44,832 bases of DNA from a virus. This document shows, one piece after another, positions 1,649 through 41,150 of this stretch. The translations under genes and the position numbers were made by a program. The stretch spans positions 1 through 44,832 of IMG/VR virus record IMGVR_UViG_3300043449_001145, one strand, 5' to 3'. Under the pieces are notes generated by a model that made no database searches, had not been told where the DNA came from, and worked only from the letters and a program-made list of their open reading frames with translations. The first letter of the stretch is position 1, and each line of letters begins with the position of its first letter.

Positions 1649-2326
1649 ATGGCAACCAAGCCCGCTAAAAAAGCCCCGGCAAAAAAAGCCCCGGCGAAGA
1701 AGACCGCAGCCAAACCGGCAGCAAAGAAACCCGCAGCCAAGCCCGCTAAACCGGCAGCCAAAAAGCCGGTTGCGAAGAAAGCCGCAAAACCAGCCCCCAA
1801 AGCCCCAGCAAAGCCCGTCAAGGCTGCCGCTGCGCCCAAGGGCAAACCTGCCGCCAGCAAGCCCGCAGATGCGCCCACGGGCGCAGGAAAGCGGGAAATT
1901 AAGAATGGCGTGGCCCGCCCGCGTCCGAATTCTATTGCGGCCCAATTGTGGGCGATTGCGGATGATTTGAAAGCGAAGCTTGGACGCCCCCCGGCACGCT
2001 TCGAATTCCGCCAAGCCTGCGAGGGGAAAGGCTTCGTTTCCCATACTATTAGCTTCCAGTTTCATTTCTGGCGGACCTTTAACAGCATTCCGGGCCGGGC
2101 ATTGGGAATCTATCCAAAGCGCAATTCCTTTGAATTGAGCGTTCCAACGCCATACGTCCGCAAACGCGACCAAAAGGAAGCCGCCGAACCTGCCAAGGCT
2201 GCCAACAAGCCCGCCAAAGCTTCCAAGCCTCCGGTGGAATACTGCGCGCCGCCGGAAGGTGAGGACGAAGCGCAAGCGGGCGTTTCGTCGCGCCTTAGCA
2301 AAGCTTCCGCGCAAGCGGCGAAATAA
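1649..2326 (+). CDS. Histone H1-like basic protein with central DNA-binding-like domain
   Basis: The protein has 225 residues. Residues 2 to about 71 are almost pure Lys/Ala/Pro repeats, as in bacterial H1-like (Hc1/AlgP-type) tails. A compact domain follows at about 82-150, with the pattern QLWAIADDL, GRPPARFEF and HFWRTF. It resembles a small domain in other phage and plasmid proteins that ends in a Trp-Arg-(Lys)-Phe signature; I infer DNA binding. A second Ala/Lys/Pro stretch runs to the end. A role in coating phage or host DNA is likely but unproven. The start context is an A-rich leader, and a perfect hairpin (2347-2373) follows the stop. Confidence 0.8.
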   Translation: MATKPAKKAPAKKAPAKKTAAKPAAKKPAAKPAKPAAKKPVAKKAAKPAPKAPAKPVKAAAAPKGKPAASKPADAPTGAGKREIKNGVARPRPNSIAAQLWAIADDLKAKLGRPPARFEFRQACEGKGFVSHTISFQFHFWRTFNSIPGRALGIYPKRNSFELSVPTPYVRKRDQKEAAEPAKAANKPAKASKPPVEYCAPPEGEDEAQAGVSSRLSKASAQAAK

Positions 2327-28702: not shown

Positions 28703-30253
28703 TTAACTTGAATATTTAGTTTTAATCGAACGGGACAGTTTGCGCGAATTGTCTAGAACCCGGTAACGCAATTCGTCTTGTAAGTGGTCTTCCGTGTCAG
28801 TGTCAACGTCGTCGGGGTTATCTTCATCGCGGGGCGTATCGGGCAGGAACTTCCTCGCATACTTACAAGACTTTGTAAAATACAATCCCGGACCTTCCCC
28901 GGTTAAGGAATTTTGCAGCAAGTCACGAATAAGTTGCCAACCGTTTTTGCGACTTCCTGCGGATTTATCCGCCGGAATCCATCCAATCCCTTCTTCCGCC
29001 ATCTTGCTTCCGATTGTGGCAACATCCTTTTCGCGGGTTTGGAAAATCTGCCCGTCCGCCGGTCCATCCGCAGGGATAACGGAAATAACCTTGTTCTTTA
29101 TTAATTCCATTTCCCTTTCCATGATGCCAGCCGCGATTTCCGGCCCGGACATTCTCAAACCGTCATTGATGCCGCCGCTTGTCCCATACCATTCAGCAAA
29201 GCGGATGATCGAACCCTTGCGCGGGGTAAATTTTTGGCCATTGTTAAGAATAACCGTTTCACCATTGGCGACAGCATACCAGCCAACGCTGAACGGGTGC
29301 GAGCTTCCCCAGTCAAACGCCCGGTCAACATACCAGCCCGCAGGAATTCGGAAATCATCAATAACGTGAATCGCTTCTTTCCAAAGATCGTTAAACATTC
29401 CCCCGGCGCGAATGTTCCAATCGCCAAGCAACCAAGCCTTGCGACGTTCGGGGTCCGTTTCGTTTTCAAGGGTCGCGATATATTCCGGCGCAAGATAGAT
29501 GTTTTCTTTATATGTCCCGAAAAGCCGCACCTTCGAACGCGTGACGTTTTCGCGCTGTTTCGTGCGCGGGTTGAAAATGTTCGTTGTTGTTTTAACAATT
29601 TCGCCCGGTTCGCCCACGTCAACAAATTCATCCTTAACCCATGAATGGCCCGGACCCCACGGGTTAGTTGTTGAGAAGATTTGCAAGGGCAATTCCGGCA
29701 GCGGCTTTCCGTCCGGGGTCCGATAAGTGCCGTCGGCATTTTTTGGCGTATGCAGTTCGGGCAAAAAGCCGGAACGGTTGCAAGACTTCATCAAATCGTA
29801 AATCTTGCGATTCGGATACTTTGTTAATTCATTCCAGCCAATCCACGGGAATTCTTGCCCGTGAAATTTCATATAATCCGATTCCCGTTTAATCTGCCGG
29901 AAAAACAAAACCTCACCGGTTGGCCAGCGCCAAAAATAATCACCCTTTGACCGTTTGAATTCTGCGCCGTCGGCAAACGCGTAAAAATGCTTTTCCGATT
30001 TGGCAATAATATCATCAAGATTCTTATACTCGCGATCAAATATAATTCCGCGAAGAAACTTGCCGTAACCCATGCCCACAAGGGAACGGAAACGCATCAA
30101 CTGCGCGTCGGTCTTGCCGGGGCCGCGCGAACCATCATAAAGAATTTCATTGCAAGGACACGTTACGGCAAGGGATTGGCTGCCGGGAATGGCCCGCCAA
30201 GTAATTTCCACTTCTTCGCCGTCTAACACGGTCCTGTCATCCGCCGCAATCAT
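28703..30253 (-). CDS. terL: Terminase large subunit
   Basis: The protein has 516 residues. The ATPase domain has a Walker A GSRGPGKT (41-48). The usual Walker B position reads PWIGWNELTKYP (about 136-147), with Asn where the common form has Asp. The coupling segment is STTNPWGPGHSWV. The nuclease domain shows FDWGSSHPFSVGWY, ADGPADGQIF and EDHLQDELRYRV, the expected acidic residues. It cuts and pumps DNA into the capsid. It overlaps the small gene upstream by four bases. The Asn in Walker B is worth checking against relatives. Confidence 0.93.
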   Translation of the reverse strand: MIAADDRTVLDGEEVEITWRAIPGSQSLAVTCPCNEILYDGSRGPGKTDAQLMRFRSLVGMGYGKFLRGIIFDREYKNLDDIIAKSEKHFYAFADGAEFKRSKGDYFWRWPTGEVLFFRQIKRESDYMKFHGQEFPWIGWNELTKYPNRKIYDLMKSCNRSGFLPELHTPKNADGTYRTPDGKPLPELPLQIFSTTNPWGPGHSWVKDEFVDVGEPGEIVKTTTNIFNPRTKQRENVTRSKVRLFGTYKENIYLAPEYIATLENETDPERRKAWLLGDWNIRAGGMFNDLWKEAIHVIDDFRIPAGWYVDRAFDWGSSHPFSVGWYAVANGETVILNNGQKFTPRKGSIIRFAEWYGTSGGINDGLRMSGPEIAAGIMEREMELIKNKVISVIPADGPADGQIFQTREKDVATIGSKMAEEGIGWIPADKSAGSRKNGWQLIRDLLQNSLTGEGPGLYFTKSCKYARKFLPDTPRDEDNPDDVDTDTEDHLQDELRYRVLDNSRKLSRSIKTKYSS

Positions 30254-34026: not shown

Positions 34027-34310
34027 GACGTTTTGATTTTGGCGTTTTCGATCTTGAGCGGTTCCCCGTTCAAAAATTGGCAAAGGGTGGCAAGCGCAAG
34101 CTGCCGCGAGTTTTTGGGCGACGGGAGGAAGATCAACCACGAAAGCGAACCTTCGACAAGTCGAACAGTTGCTTTGTAAACGGTCCCAATCCCTGCGCGT
34201 GCAGCGGTCCCGGTTGAATGGTATTCAATTGAAACAAGTTTCGTTTCAACCTTCTTTGCCCGTCTAAGCTTGAGCGCAAGCGCGCGTTGCTGAATTTCCG
34301 TTAGAGTCAT
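34023..34310 (-). CDS. Hypothetical protein, 95 aa
   Basis: I chose the ATG at 34310 because it overlaps the preceding stop by four bases (ATGA). The protein starts with a basic helix (TLTEIQQRALALKLRRAKK), followed by beta-type segments (KLVSIEYHSTGTAAR, TVYKATVRLVEG) and a final helix. The family is not recognised. It is the middle gene of the three-gene unit 34780 to 33781. Confidence 0.66.
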   Translation of the reverse strand: MTLTEIQQRALALKLRRAKKVETKLVSIEYHSTGTAARAGIGTVYKATVRLVEGSLSWLIFLPSPKNSRQLALATLCQFLNGEPLKIENAKIKTS

Positions 34311-34780
34311 TGGTCGAAGGTGTAATGTCTGCCGCAATCCGGGCAAGTTCCGATTTCGCCGGATAGCGCGTGCGGGTAGTCCTGCGATTCAGTTGGTCGC
34401 ATGATTCCCATTTGCCAATCAACATCCAACCGAATCTTCCTTTCCACAATCAGCGGCTTACGACTTCCGCAGCCGCAGGATGCATCCGGCCCAAGTTCGA
34501 CCGGCGGCGCGTCGGCGTGCTTTTGATTCTCCGCAAGAAGGCGCGTGACTTCCTCGCTGATTGTTTCGCGCCCTTGGGAAAGGCGCAACCTGTCCACAAT
34601 GGCGCAAAGCGTTTGTTCTAGTTCGGAGAACGCGACCAGTTCGAAGGAATCAACCGCGTGATGTTTCCGAACGCGAACTTGAAACTTCCAATTGGAACGC
34701 GGACGAATTTTGACGGAACAACCGTTTTCCAGCAATTCCGCGATCAGCTCCCAAATCACCTTGTTTTGATGAATTTTCAT
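34307..34780 (-). CDS. Hypothetical protein with two cysteine pairs, 157 aa
   Basis: The protein has 157 residues. The N-terminal half is a mixed strand-helix domain; the C-terminal half carries CGCGSRK and CPDCGRHYTF, so four Cys (with a long spacer) likely bind zinc. It lies directly next to the iteron array (34784-35061), and three repeats overlap the -35 area of its likely promoter (TATAAT at 34846-34851). An origin-binding or regulatory role is an attractive guess, but no replication-initiator family is recognised. Confidence 0.68.
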   Translation of the reverse strand: MKIHQNKVIWELIAELLENGCSVKIRPRSNWKFQVRVRKHHAVDSFELVAFSELEQTLCAIVDRLRLSQGRETISEEVTRLLAENQKHADAPPVELGPDASCGCGSRKPLIVERKIRLDVDWQMGIMRPTESQDYPHALSGEIGTCPDCGRHYTFDQ

Positions 34781-34783
34781 TTT

Positions 34784-35061
34784 TTAACCGAATTAACCTT
34801 TTGGGCATTTTTTGGTTAACGCCGCAAACCGTTGAAAATAAAGGAATTATATAAATCTATTAACCTATTAACCTAATTAACCCTTTTTAGGGAAAAAATT
34901 TCGCTCGCCTTCCGCGCGCGCGTGAAGCGGCGCACGCGAGGGTTTCTGAATGGGTCTTTTTTCTTCAAAACTGGTTAACAGGTTAAAATCCGTTGTAAGT
35001 CGTTGAAAATCAGTTAGTTACACTGCTAACCCGACTGGTTAACGCTTGGTTAACAGGTTAA
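34784..35061. other. Iteron array with central hairpin: candidate replication origin
   Basis: The hexamer TTAACC occurs at 34784, 34793, 34860, 34868 and 34877. Its complement GGTTAA occurs at 34814, 34973, 34981, 35037, 35048 and 35056. The left half is mainly TTAACC and the right half only GGTTAA. A hairpin (CGCGTG 34919-34924 with CACGCG 34933-34938) lies almost exactly at the centre, and 34781-34900 is A/T-rich. Repeat spacing inside groups is 8-11 bp. It is the longest gap without a full gene (34781-35038), and the end of the 35039-35329 gene runs into it. A replication origin or a regulator's operator array are the main options. Confidence 0.6.
34846..34851 (-). promoter_or_regulatory. 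-10-like TATAAT overlapping the iteron array
   Basis: On the minus strand TATAAT lies 66 nt upstream of the ATG at 34780. The region where a -35 box should be is occupied by three iterons (34860-34882) and has no TTGACA match. Transcription from here may therefore depend on, or be blocked by, the iteron-binding protein. Confidence 0.45.
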
Positions 35062-35329
35062 CGCGACAGAACTGGCGGATTTCCGAAAAGGCCCATTCCC
35101 GCCAAATCCCTGCCGGAATCAACTTGCGCGCGCACGCTTGAGCAAAGCGACGGACGCGAACGCGGATTGCAAAACGGCATCCGCGCGGGCTGAATGTCAG
35201 ATAAACCGCAATCGCGCGCCCGTAGCGCAATCGCTGGAATGCTCGCCGGTAGAACCGCAGGACAACCAAGGTTGCGCCGGGCCGGTATTGTGGAAACGCT
35301 GAAACGCGTTCGGATGGTTTGGTTTTCAT
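35039..35329 (-). CDS. Very basic hypothetical protein, 96 aa
   Basis: The protein has 96 residues with about 20 Arg and several Phe/Tyr (RFYRRAFQRLRYGRA, RVRVRRFAQACARK). No family is recognised. The last codons and the stop lie inside iteron repeats, so the gene end and the array share sequence. The ATG has a CTTAAACATG context, 12 nt after the preceding stop. It may bind nucleic acid, but a spurious frame in a regulatory region cannot be excluded. Confidence 0.5.
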   Translation of the reverse strand: MKTKPSERVSAFPQYRPGATLVVLRFYRRAFQRLRYGRAIAVYLTFSPRGCRFAIRVRVRRFAQACARKLIPAGIWREWAFSEIRQFCRVNLLTKR

Positions 35330-35341
35330 GTTTAAGAAAGG

Positions 35342-35587
35342 TTAGCCGATGCTCACGGAATGGAATTTGCCCATTTCGTCAATCCAGCAATAAAACAATG
35401 AATCGAAAGCCACGCAGTAACCCGCGACGCTTTCAAGCGTCTTGCTAAGGTCTTCGGCGTTGGTTGCTTCGCCGTGGTCTAGATGACGGCGGAAAGCGGA
35501 ACCCTTGGAAACGCCCCACGCAGCCCAAGGAAGATTTCCCGCCGCGCGGGTAGTGGCTGCGAATTCCTTCCAGTCGAATTTTTTCAT
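35342..35587 (-). CDS. Hypothetical protein, 81 aa
   Basis: An 81-residue protein opening with KKFDWKEFAATTRAAG and having a likely helix-turn-helix-like stretch (WAAWGVSKGSAFRRHLDHGEATNAEDLSKTLE, split here only as a description of 24-55), then a strand-rich end (YCVAFDSLFYCWIDEMG). It may be a small DNA-binding regulator, at low certainty. It follows the 35608-36054 gene with 20 nt between. Confidence 0.65.
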   Translation of the reverse strand: MKKFDWKEFAATTRAAGNLPWAAWGVSKGSAFRRHLDHGEATNAEDLSKTLESVAGYCVAFDSLFYCWIDEMGKFHSVSIG

Positions 35588-36147: not shown

Positions 36148-38403
36148 TTACCAAGCCGGGCCGGGGTAATAAATCGGCGCTTTCATGCCGAATTCTGTTT
36201 GAAGCTGTTGGAGGGGGACCATTTCCAGAACCTCACGGCGGACCATATCGCCCAACAAATCAGCAAGGGCGCGAGTCGGCCCGCGCCGGTCGTTCTTGAA
36301 GCACGCCAAACGCCGCGCGTAGATCGTGAAAAAAGCCGCCGGGACGACTTGGGAAGAAAGAAGCGCCTTCGGGCAGCGATGGGCAAGGCGCTGTTTTTCC
36401 GTGAGCGTCTGGAAGTGGGCAAACAGTCGGCGAATTTCGCTTTCTTGTTTCGCTTCGCCGGTCCCAACGTCGCCCGATGAAAAGCGCCGCATCATGTCCC
36501 CAATTTCCCGGCGGATGATTCCAACCGCCCACAAGGCAACGCCCGCGTCAATCGTCGGCGCATGGATGTTGACGCCGACGGCAACCAGCGCCGCAAGCTT
36601 GAGCGCCTTTAGATGCGCCCGGTTCCAAAGTTCCGCCTCCGTGTCAATGGCGGTTGAATTGATCTTGAAATCGGCTTCGGCGTTGAGCTTGTCAAAAATG
36701 GCTTTTGCTTCGGCGCTCATCGAAACCGGGCAACAAGTATGATGCTGCGCCGTATTGACGGCAACCGTGACCAATTCGCCAAAAGCCTTGACCAGTTCAG
36801 GCGCGGGCGGATGGAATGCGTTTGGGTTCGGGTCCGGGCGCTGCCCGTGATATTCGATGATCGTAAAGCGCGGAATCAAACCTTCGGCGATATGCGAAAC
36901 GTCCAGCCCGTTAAAGAATGTTTCCGGGGTCGATTCGCCCAAAATCGTAACGTTGGGCGCTTGGACTAGGCGCGTGTTTTTGTCGCTGTCGGAATAGACG
37001 CTTGAGCGAAGAACCTTTGTAAATCCGCTTTTGGCGTAAATATCAAGCAAGACCCGGCGCAGCATCAAAAGTGGTCCGGGCGCGTTGGGGTCGCAAATCT
37101 GTTGCAGCGTCAACCCCACTTCCCCAAGCACGGAAACGAAACATGGGCGCGAATCCAGAACCTTTACCAAGGCTTGACCCGACGCAAACGCAGCCGGTCC
37201 CATAAAGTCGTCAACCATCGGGATATTCTGGCGAACGGCTGCAACTAGATTGTCAATGCCGGTTGCCGCGCCTTCCTTTCCGCGTCCCGTCTTCGCAAGA
37301 AGCATAATATATTGGTTAAGACCCGTTCCGCTCACGTTGTAGGAACGCGCACAAATTCCGGCGCAAAGGGCGATTGATGCCGCAAGAGCGACTTCGGGAA
37401 CCGGGCGAATTGCGCTTGAAAGAATGTAATCCGCAACCTGCCCAACCAACCCCGGCGGGAAGGAATACTTTGAAACAGGTTGCGAGAAATCCGGCACGGG
37501 TTCGGCTTCCGGCGCTGGCGGTTCGCTTTCGATTTGTGGCAATTGGGAAATGTCCACAAGGGGCGCTTCGCGTTGGCGAATGCGCTTCAAGCTGCGATTG
37601 ATATAAACATCATTTCGCGTCGCCTTCGGTCGCTGGCCCAACGCCGTTTGTCGGAACATCCGGCGCACCTGTTCATTGCTGCGCGTATAAAATGCGAGCA
37701 TTGAAATCAACGCAAAGTCGGCTTCCGATTGGGAAGGGTATCCAAGCGCGTTAAAGTTGCCTTCGCAAAGTTTAACAAACTTTTCAGCATTCCCCGCGCG
37801 CGTCGCCATCTTCCAGATTTGAGCATCTTCTAAAATCGGGTCTTCTTCGACCAGTTCGCCCGCTTCGTCAGTCAAGCGCCCCATCTGCGAAAACATCGCG
37901 TCAAGCAAAGGCTGACAGTCGGCAACGGGCGCGTTTTTAATCACGTTGCCCGTGAAGATCATATAACGGTCGCAAGAATAAATTTCCACCTTGTCCCGCC
38001 GCACGCCGCAAGGAATGGAACCCTTGACGACAATATGAACGCCGCGCCCGCTTTGGGAAACTTCCGCGTAAGTGTCGAATGCGTCAAAAATCGCTTGATG
38101 ACGTTCCGCCCTTTCTTGCGCTAGCGGATAATCCGGGTCGGTTTCCAGAATGCGCGATTTCTGCCCTTTAACGTTGCGTTCAAACGGATCGTCCAAGTCT
38201 ATCACGCAAAACGGATCGTTCCGCCCTAGGATAAAGCCGACGTGCCGCATTCCGGCTTGGATCGCTTCGGCGAATGTTCCGCCCGTTGTGGGGTCCGCTG
38301 GGTCCGCAAGTTGTCCGGTTCGCGGGTTGATGGGCTTTTTGTCGGAACCTGCCGCCACCCATTGCGGAAGGGCGCGCAGTTCTGCGGGAATATTTTCAAT
38401 CAT
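36148..38403 (-). CDS. PrimPol-type primase with C-terminal helicase-like (DUF3987-type) domain
   Basis: I chose the ATG at 38403 (751 residues), 11 nt after the preceding stop; a longer in-frame start would overlap that gene. The PrimPol core has VIDLDDP (Asp69, Asp71), SGRGVHIV (His123) and EIYSCDRYMIFTG (140-152). A helical primase C-terminal domain follows (about 195-275). The C-terminal half has a Walker A-like AKTGRGKE (371-378) and later LGEVGLTL and EGLIPRFTI, as in DUF3987-type ATPases. It should make primers, and perhaps unwind DNA, for the family B polymerase. The Walker A last residue is Glu, not Ser/Thr, so ATPase activity is uncertain. Confidence 0.88.
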   Translation of the reverse strand: MIENIPAELRALPQWVAAGSDKKPINPRTGQLADPADPTTGGTFAEAIQAGMRHVGFILGRNDPFCVIDLDDPFERNVKGQKSRILETDPDYPLAQERAERHQAIFDAFDTYAEVSQSGRGVHIVVKGSIPCGVRRDKVEIYSCDRYMIFTGNVIKNAPVADCQPLLDAMFSQMGRLTDEAGELVEEDPILEDAQIWKMATRAGNAEKFVKLCEGNFNALGYPSQSEADFALISMLAFYTRSNEQVRRMFRQTALGQRPKATRNDVYINRSLKRIRQREAPLVDISQLPQIESEPPAPEAEPVPDFSQPVSKYSFPPGLVGQVADYILSSAIRPVPEVALAASIALCAGICARSYNVSGTGLNQYIMLLAKTGRGKEGAATGIDNLVAAVRQNIPMVDDFMGPAAFASGQALVKVLDSRPCFVSVLGEVGLTLQQICDPNAPGPLLMLRRVLLDIYAKSGFTKVLRSSVYSDSDKNTRLVQAPNVTILGESTPETFFNGLDVSHIAEGLIPRFTIIEYHGQRPDPNPNAFHPPAPELVKAFGELVTVAVNTAQHHTCCPVSMSAEAKAIFDKLNAEADFKINSTAIDTEAELWNRAHLKALKLAALVAVGVNIHAPTIDAGVALWAVGIIRREIGDMMRRFSSGDVGTGEAKQESEIRRLFAHFQTLTEKQRLAHRCPKALLSSQVVPAAFFTIYARRLACFKNDRRGPTRALADLLGDMVRREVLEMVPLQQLQTEFGMKAPIYYPGPAW

Positions 38404-38414
38404 GTTTGCGGGTC

Positions 38415-38636
38415 TTAAAATTTCTTGCCGGTAATCGCTGAAATAAGGAGTTCGACGCGTTGAACCGACGGGGCTTTGATTTCTCCGGCCCGGAACTTTC
38501 TTAGCCACGAAATTGGAAGGCGCGTTGCAAGGTAAAGTTCTTCGAGGCTTCGCGCCTTGGCGAGTTCAAGGGCTAACGGATAAAGCTTGCCGCCGGGCAA
38601 TTCTTGTTTCCTGATTTTTTTCTTGCGGCTGGGCAT
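38415..38636 (-). CDS. Small helix-turn-helix (XRE/Cro-like) DNA-binding protein
   Basis: The protein has 73 residues. A basic N-terminus precedes a Cro-like domain (about 20-70): LELAKARSLEELYLATRLP, then ISWLRKFRAGEIKAPS, then VELLISAITG. It is transcribed away from the recombination genes; its start and the 38699 start face each other over 62 bp. It is the best candidate for the switch between the two blocks. It is very short and lacks a separate dimerisation or cleavage domain, so it is unlike a CI repressor. It is the first gene of the leftward block, upstream of the primase. Confidence 0.72.
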   Translation of the reverse strand: MPSRKKKIRKQELPGGKLYPLALELAKARSLEELYLATRLPISWLRKFRAGEIKAPSVQRVELLISAITGKKF

Positions 38637-40223: not shown

Positions 40224-41150
40224 ATGAGCGAAAAAAATACGGCGTTGACCTTCGACGCGTCCCAAGTTGAACCCCAGCGCCCGATGGATGTTATTCCGGC
40301 GGGCTGGTATTCGTGCGAAATCACGGACGCCGAAGTTGTGGCAACCAAGGGCCGCAATCCCGGAACCCGTGCCAACTTTACCTTTTCGGTATTGGTTGGG
40401 GAACACAAGGGCCGGAAGATTTTCGGCGGAATCAACGTCAAGAATTCCAACGCGCAAGCGCAGGAAATCGGGCAACGCGAGCTTTCGGCAATCTGCCACG
40501 CGACCGGCATTATTGCCGTCTCGGATCTTCGCGTTTTCATTGGCAAACAACTTCAAGTCAAAGTGAAGGTTCGCAAGCCAAGCGATGAGGAAGTTGCAAA
40601 GGGCTATGAGGAACGCAACGAACCAAACGGTTTCAAGGCGCTTGAAGGTGCGGTTTCGGCTGCCACCGGCCCGGCCCCGTTTGTTCCCGGCGTTCCGGCT
40701 GCGCCCATTGCGCCAGCCGCCCCGGTTGCTGCGGCGTTTCCGCCTGCCGATTGGGTCGCGCATCCAAGCGCCCCCGGCCATTACTACAAGGGGCGGGAAG
40801 TTTTGACCGAAGCGGAATTGCGCGCGCGCTTTGCGCCCGTTGCTGCCGCCCCGGTCGCGCCGCCTGCGCCCGTCGCGCCCCCGGTTCCGGCTGCGCCTGC
40901 GGTCGTTGAATTCCCGCCCGCCGGTTGGGTTGCCCATCCGTCCGCGCCGGGTTGGTATTACAACGCCGCAAACCCGGCGGAAATGCTCACGGAAGCCGAT
41001 TTGCGCGCCCGTAGCGCCGCGCCTGCGGTTCCGGCCATTCCTGCCGCCCCGGCGCTTCCTGCGGTTCCTAGCGCGCCTGCCGCGCCTGCCGCGCCTGCCG
41101 TGCCAGCCGTCCCGGTTGCCGGTTCCGTCCCGCCTTGGAAGCAAGGCTAA
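40224..41150 (+). CDS. DUF669-type ssDNA-binding protein with repeated Ala/Pro-rich tail
   Basis: The protein has 308 residues. The first ~145 match DUF669 phage single-stranded DNA-binding proteins (FDASQVEP, IPAGWYSCEI, GRKIFGGINV, LSAICHATGI). A long Ala/Pro-rich tail follows with two copies of a WVAHPSAPGxYY ... LTEAxLRAR motif (172-203 and 230-263). It ends in VPPWKQG. The tail is twice the size of normal DUF669 proteins and may recruit partners. The leader 40176-40223 is A/C-rich and unstructured, which suggests high expression. An intrinsic terminator follows. Confidence 0.9.
   Translation: MSEKNTALTFDASQVEPQRPMDVIPAGWYSCEITDAEVVATKGRNPGTRANFTFSVLVGEHKGRKIFGGINVKNSNAQAQEIGQRELSAICHATGIIAVSDLRVFIGKQLQVKVKVRKPSDEEVAKGYEERNEPNGFKALEGAVSAATGPAPFVPGVPAAPIAPAAPVAAAFPPADWVAHPSAPGHYYKGREVLTEAELRARFAPVAAAPVAPPAPVAPPVPAAPAVVEFPPAGWVAHPSAPGWYYNAANPAEMLTEADLRARSAAPAVPAIPAAPALPAVPSAPAAPAAPAVPAVPVAGSVPPWKQG

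Follow-up and report, generated by a model that had tools for sequence, protein, structure and literature searches.

The window analysed here is a viral DNA of 44,832 nucleotides (IMG/VR record IMGVR_UViG_3300043449_001145), in which 11 exact TTAACC/GGTTAA sites are crowded into 278 bp (34784-35061), out of 34 occurrences in the whole window. On the plus strand, TTAACC starts at 34784, 34793, 34860, 34868, and 34877, and GGTTAA at 34814, 34973, 34981, 35037, 35048, and 35056. These exact matches confirm the count, the coordinates, and the mirrored halves described in an initial annotation of this DNA. Such crowding is far above chance: when the whole window was dinucleotide-shuffled 200 times, no stretch of 278 bp contained more than 4 hexamers, and 5000 shuffles of the local 450 bp likewise yielded at most 4. 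The spacing of 8-11 bp within groups (8, 8, 8, 9, 9, and 11 bp) and the A/T-rich left half (70 % A/T, the centre having 49 % and the right half 61 %) were likewise recovered. Read on the minus strand, which is the direction of the primase gene, the array consists of three TTAACC, 56 bp, two TTAACC, a centre of 96 bp, three GGTTAA, 46 bp, one TTAACC, 21 bp, and two GGTTAA. The features are as follows, L numbers designating relatives that share the primase or, further below, contigs found by the repeat pattern:

34784-34798, plus strand: left distal pair, two TTAACC; a counterpart pair lies in the same place in L126 and L183 (primase direction)
34814-34819, minus strand: single inverted site (GGTTAA on the plus strand), likewise in L001, L126, L127, and L183
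34820-34859, no strand: A/T-rich stretch (68 % A/T), TTATATAA, candidate unwinding element
34860-34882, plus strand: left inner cluster, three TTAACC; position conserved in L001 and L127
34883-34972, no strand: central gap between the mirrored inner clusters, with a GC-rich middle and A/T tracts on either side
34973-34986, minus strand: right inner pair, GGTTAACAGGTTAA; the identical 14-mer occurs in L001
34996-35006, minus strand: IHF-like element, TCAACGACTTA, between the right inner and right distal clusters
35037-35061, minus strand: right distal cluster, three exact GGTTAA sites
36148-38403, minus strand: primase-polymerase/helicase, the proposed initiator, with NrS-1-type PrimPol, helix-bundle, MCM-like AAA+, and C-terminal winged-helix-like domains
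38415-38636, minus strand: 73-aa helix-turn-helix (HTH)-like protein, directly upstream of the primase

Other features ascribed to the locus fared less well. Whether it is the largest non-coding stretch of the window is uncertain, as a possible 96-aa ORF on the minus strand (35039-35329) would enter the right-hand sites; the end of this ORF overlaps the right-hand repeats, and its DNA bears a weak likeness to a small ORF preceding the array in L001. The central 6-bp hairpin (CGCGTG at 34919-34924, CACGCG at 34933-34938) does exist, but the array centre folds no better than its shuffles (z -0.29), and the stem is absent from L001 and L127. As fold energy was no better than that of shuffles in the window, L001, L127, or L126, the hairpin was discarded as an origin feature. 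The cumulative GC skew, suggested as a check for an origin, has its minimum at 33.1 kb, but the curve is flat from about 30 to 42 kb, making so broad a minimum uninformative.

The primase gene lies about 1.1 kb from the array, at the distance originally given. Its product belongs to PHROG 3022 and carries the NrS-1 helix-bundle domain. The ORF as listed spans 36148-38508 (786 aa, GTG start at 38508) and overlaps the HTH gene at 38415-38636. Since residues 1-33 are disordered in the structural model and the L001 primase starts at an ATG equivalent to residue 36 (window position 38403), the true start is probably 38403. Residues 31-308 match NrS-1 PrimPol in the PDB, and in Foldseek searches with the predicted structure (mean pLDDT 89.8) the best match of the N-terminus was again NrS-1 PrimPol, while the AAA+ part was closest to MCM proteins. 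The C-terminal domain (residues 685-786) is predicted to be compact (pLDDT 91.5) and resembles a winged helix; Foldseek against the PDB returned no significant match for it (best E 0.2), many of its weak matches being winged helices.

The array is retained in the nearest relatives sharing this primase. In L001, whose primase is 75 % identical over the alignment, 12 exact sites occupy the syntenic counterpart of this gap, 2.1 kb past the primase gene, and the array DNA aligns block by block, with aligned blocks in common also in the central gap (34883-34972), although the adjacent protein is just 29 % identical. L127 (primase 66 % identical) has the GGTTAA word in the same layout 178 bp past the primase stop, and the gene following its array differs from that of the window. 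L126 (primase 70 % identical) is devoid of TTAACC/GGTTAA hexamers and instead contains GGTAAAC 12 times, at a distance of 3.6 kb past the primase gene. The arrangement is close to that of the window: three inward sites and a reversed one, 44 bp, two sites, a centre of 98 bp, three opposed sites, 68 bp, an inverted site, 21 bp, and two sites. Most array-bearing relatives have the array 0-200 bp past the primase stop; in the window, L001, and L126, small genes spanning 1.1-3.6 kb lie between the two. In relatives the array goes with the primase gene and not with the neighbouring gene. Neither of the neighbours initially suggested as DNA-binding partners (34307-34780 and 35342-35587) accompanies the array, as was seen for 34307-34780: its homologue was found in L001 alone and is absent from the array-bearing L126 and L127, and it was accordingly rejected as an array-linked factor.

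To extend the comparison, the post-primase region of the other primase relatives was scanned for any repeated 7-mer. Strong arrays, mostly of 7-bp words other than that of the window, were present in 19 of 66 post-primase stretches against 2 of 280 control stretches (Fisher p 3e-13), and 21 of 66 loci had their best cluster at the primase stop, where 2.5 would be expected, figures that describe the pattern and are not a preregistered test, as words and hits were picked per locus after looking. Both control stretches that passed have their exact sites on one strand only and resemble coding repeats. The strand statistics are independent of word choice: excluding the GGTTAA group, 58 of 60 pairs of neighbours within 13 bp shared a strand, and 23 of 28 pairs flanking a gap of 60-110 bp were on opposite strands. 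This layout, with same-direction sites about 8-12 bp apart, recurs over about 20 words. The words of the arrays include TTAAACA (L183), GGGAACA (L138), TGGAAAT/TGGGAAT (L154, L152), GGGAAAT (L128), TGTAAGT (L162), GTTTAAT (L170), and ATATACT (L193). Arrays also occur in isolated phages, namely Pseudomonas PSASB_03, Stenotrophomonas Bhz54, and Variovorax VPv64 (all with GGGGATA, as in L144 and L181), Achromobacter phiAxp-1 (GTTTTCGG), and Escherichia Halfdan (TATAAGG). That related phages maintain the same layout with different words suggests that the word and the protein reading it change together.

The array is not found in all relatives. In 54 of the 80 regions tested the score was below 8.5 and no array was called, and phages of the Kakheti25/KL1 type have, in place of a detectable post-primase array, a terminator-like hairpin and a small gene. 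Either some relatives lack the feature or degenerate arrays escape the method; relatives without a called array may hold their origin elsewhere or use degenerate sites. Possible displaced origins were seen in two primase relatives, L002 (2722-3033, eight ATTAAC upstream of the primase) and L173 (17841-18145, 12-13 GGGTAC 6.5 kb downstream of it). In four records of Pseudomonas phage PSV3 (L212 is its clone NODE_2), the match to the primase is broken up among several ORFs, reflecting frameshifts or sequencing errors. An IMG/VR motif scan with three GGTTAA sites listed mostly unrelated contigs; among the DNA-pattern matches listed, L037 (4431-4780), L048 (2659-3000), and L008 (11489-11840) contain 15-20 TTAACC/GGTTAA hexamers per 350 bp. 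A search for the host via prophages gave no close relative among 84,980 species genomes.

Two further elements accompany the arrays. An A/T-rich region adjoins the repeats in the window, in keeping with the composition of its left half, and TATATAT is enriched in the relatives, where it was found in 33 of 79 post-primase or array regions against 2.5 expected. The motif TCAAnnnSTTA, which fits the core of the IHF consensus, was present in 14 of 30 array-bearing regions and in 8 of 49 others, compared with 31 of 1241 random windows. Its enrichment extends across the family, including some loci without a called array, of which L139, L140, and L190 each have two copies.

Taken together, we consider it likely, on comparative sequence grounds, that the array is the replication origin of the phage and that its repeats are iterons for the primase-polymerase/helicase encoded 1.1 kb away. 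The repeat cluster is far above chance and lies in or beside the replication gene block, and it is conserved with the initiator gene in L001, L126, L127, and others. The original proposal of an iteron array and probable replication origin is thereby the reading best supported by comparison, through the linkage to the primase, the fixed layout, the changing word, and the TATATA and IHF-like enrichment. Readings outside replication agree poorly with this comparison. Operators controlling the flanking genes would suit the position between two minus-strand genes, and repeated regulator sites are common in phage control regions; such a role is nevertheless very unlikely, as the neighbouring gene varies among relatives with the same array while the primase is constant, the arrays of other loci adjoin unrelated genes, and a search of the array region for a sigma-70-type promoter-like site found none. 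Still harder to credit is a packaging (pac/cos) or partition (centromere-like) site. Both processes use repeat arrays elsewhere, but the terminase large subunit gene (28703-30253) is about 6 kb away from the array, which follows the primase and not terminase or par genes in relatives, and no par gene was recognised among the genes searched.

As to what reads the array, the strongest candidate is the primase-helicase itself, which the initial annotation had named merely as a landmark, and by analogy and predicted fold its C-terminal winged-helix-like domain would most likely be the reader. Covariation does not single out this domain, since word similarity correlated equally with primase identity for the PrimPol, helicase, and C-terminal domains (rho about 0.3 alike; 0.15 for the C-terminus as a partial correlation given the helicase); a special covariation of the word with the C-terminal domain, in excess over the other domains, was thus rejected. 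The 73-aa HTH protein is a rather unlikely alternative, whether the sites would serve it as operators or it would bind the origin as an accessory factor. A homologue precedes the primase in 80 of 92 loci, making the protein roughly as constant a companion of the array-primase unit as the primase itself, and in some database records it is annotated as a transcriptional regulator or HTH DNA-binding protein. However, its putative recognition region (WLRKFxxGxxxxPSVNRVQ) is much alike across words as unrelated as GGGGATA, TGGAAAT, GTTTAAT, and TAGGACG, which argues against it as the specificity factor, and in L204 the array is present while the HTH protein was not detected. The protein could instead read the more constant TCAAnnnSTTA element, for which IHF or another bending protein may equally be considered. 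We also think it improbable that the repeats serve as single-strand start sites for the PrimPol domain and not as duplex binding sites. The primase N-terminal and helix-bundle domains do match NrS-1 PrimPol, which begins synthesis at 5'-TTTGGTTA-3' (PMC8718748); this sequence has GGTTA in common with the iteron and one exact copy in the array (34811-34818), and a mirror placement of start sites would yield opposed first strands. Nonetheless, relatives closer to the primase of the window than NrS-1 use quite different words, for which reason the GGTTA match may be chance; furthermore, the spacing of about 8-12 bp and the strict strand clusters resemble protein binding to duplex DNA, eleven start sites exceed the need, and TTTGGTTA itself is not enriched in the window.

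For the iteron origin, we envisage that the primase-polymerase/helicase would bind the iterons, most likely via its C-terminal winged-helix-like domain, and that the mirrored sets of sites around the gap of about 90 bp would load two facing hexamers of the MCM-like AAA+ domain. The A/T-rich stretch would melt, the clusters may be drawn to each other by a host bending protein at the IHF-like site, and the PrimPol domain would then make the initial primers from which two forks move outwards, giving bidirectional replication. Beyond this, and only tentatively, we propose that in these phages one polypeptide of PrimPol, MCM-like, and winged-helix domains would suffice to recognise its own mirrored origin, to open it, and to prime it, the family having diversified into many words that are mutually incompatible on a geometry that is fixed. 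Possibly, the geometry is fixed and the words diverse as primase and array must change together, with exclusion of co-infecting relatives or satellites.

By its anatomy, the array may work like the origins of staphylococcal islands. In SaPI, Rep uses its C-terminal domain to recognise an iteron origin that immediately follows its own gene, and it appears to do so as a pair of hexamers; the repeats bound by SCCmec Cch2 likewise lie just past the gene of that protein, and SaPI5 Rep unites primase and helicase domains (PMC7581432). Short iterons directly downstream of the gene for a self-loading AAA+ initiator-helicase would be common to SaPI (SaPIbov1, SaPI5), the putative origin of SCCmec Cch2, and the present array; this placement is also seen in the phages, and the analogy would extend to a C-terminal reader. 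In contrast to these islands, the carriers here are tailed phages that have DNA polymerase, SSB-like, and recombination genes of their own; their proposed initiator has the order NrS-1-type PrimPol, MCM-like AAA+, and winged-helix-like domain, and distal and inner clusters with an inverted single site over about 20 words are shown for this phage family only. Origins of the lambda type and those of iteron plasmids have an iteron cluster beside an A/T-rich stretch, often with IHF. Their repeats are direct and their initiator (the O protein in lambda) is without helicase activity, whereas here the clusters are mirrored and the proposed initiator is itself primase and helicase. Satellite phage P4 combines primase, helicase, and origin recognition in the alpha protein, which reads short repeats (ori, crr), and its origin consists of two separate sites kilobases apart. 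The phage described here has one array instead. Alpha is a primase-helicase fusion (PMC7145576), and the P4 origin-binding domain was not among the listed Foldseek matches of the primase C-terminal domain. NrS-1 PrimPol shares homologous N-terminal PrimPol and helix-bundle domains with the primase of the window and has a C-terminal hexameric AAA+ region (PMC7102993). This region has been described as SF3-like, whereas the AAA+ domain of the window is closest to MCM in the PDB search. Moreover, NrS-1 lacks an array, its genome having just two copies of the start sequence (PMC7102993).

In the open-access literature that was searched, no account of iteron arrays linked to the primase was found for these phages. 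New are the phage family, the combination of PrimPol and MCM-like domains linked to an array, and the fixed layout with many words. To our knowledge, most tailed-phage origins are unmapped, and the comparison predicts an origin beside its initiator across an entire family of phages, with cultured members among those of Pseudomonas, Stenotrophomonas, Variovorax, Achromobacter, and Escherichia. With the same spacing built from different words, natural array-primase pairs lend themselves to exchange, by which origin-initiator specificity becomes testable, as do replication incompatibility between related phages and double-hexamer loading by an MCM-like bacterial helicase.

Elsewhere in the window, the product of 1649-2326 (plus strand) has a long N-terminal tail rich in lysine, alanine, and proline that resembles histone H1 (KPAAKKPAAKPAKPAAKK), and 40224-41150 (plus strand) encodes a DUF669 SSB-like protein with a long proline/alanine-rich tail and two copies of the motif (F)PPxGWVAHPSAPGxYY.
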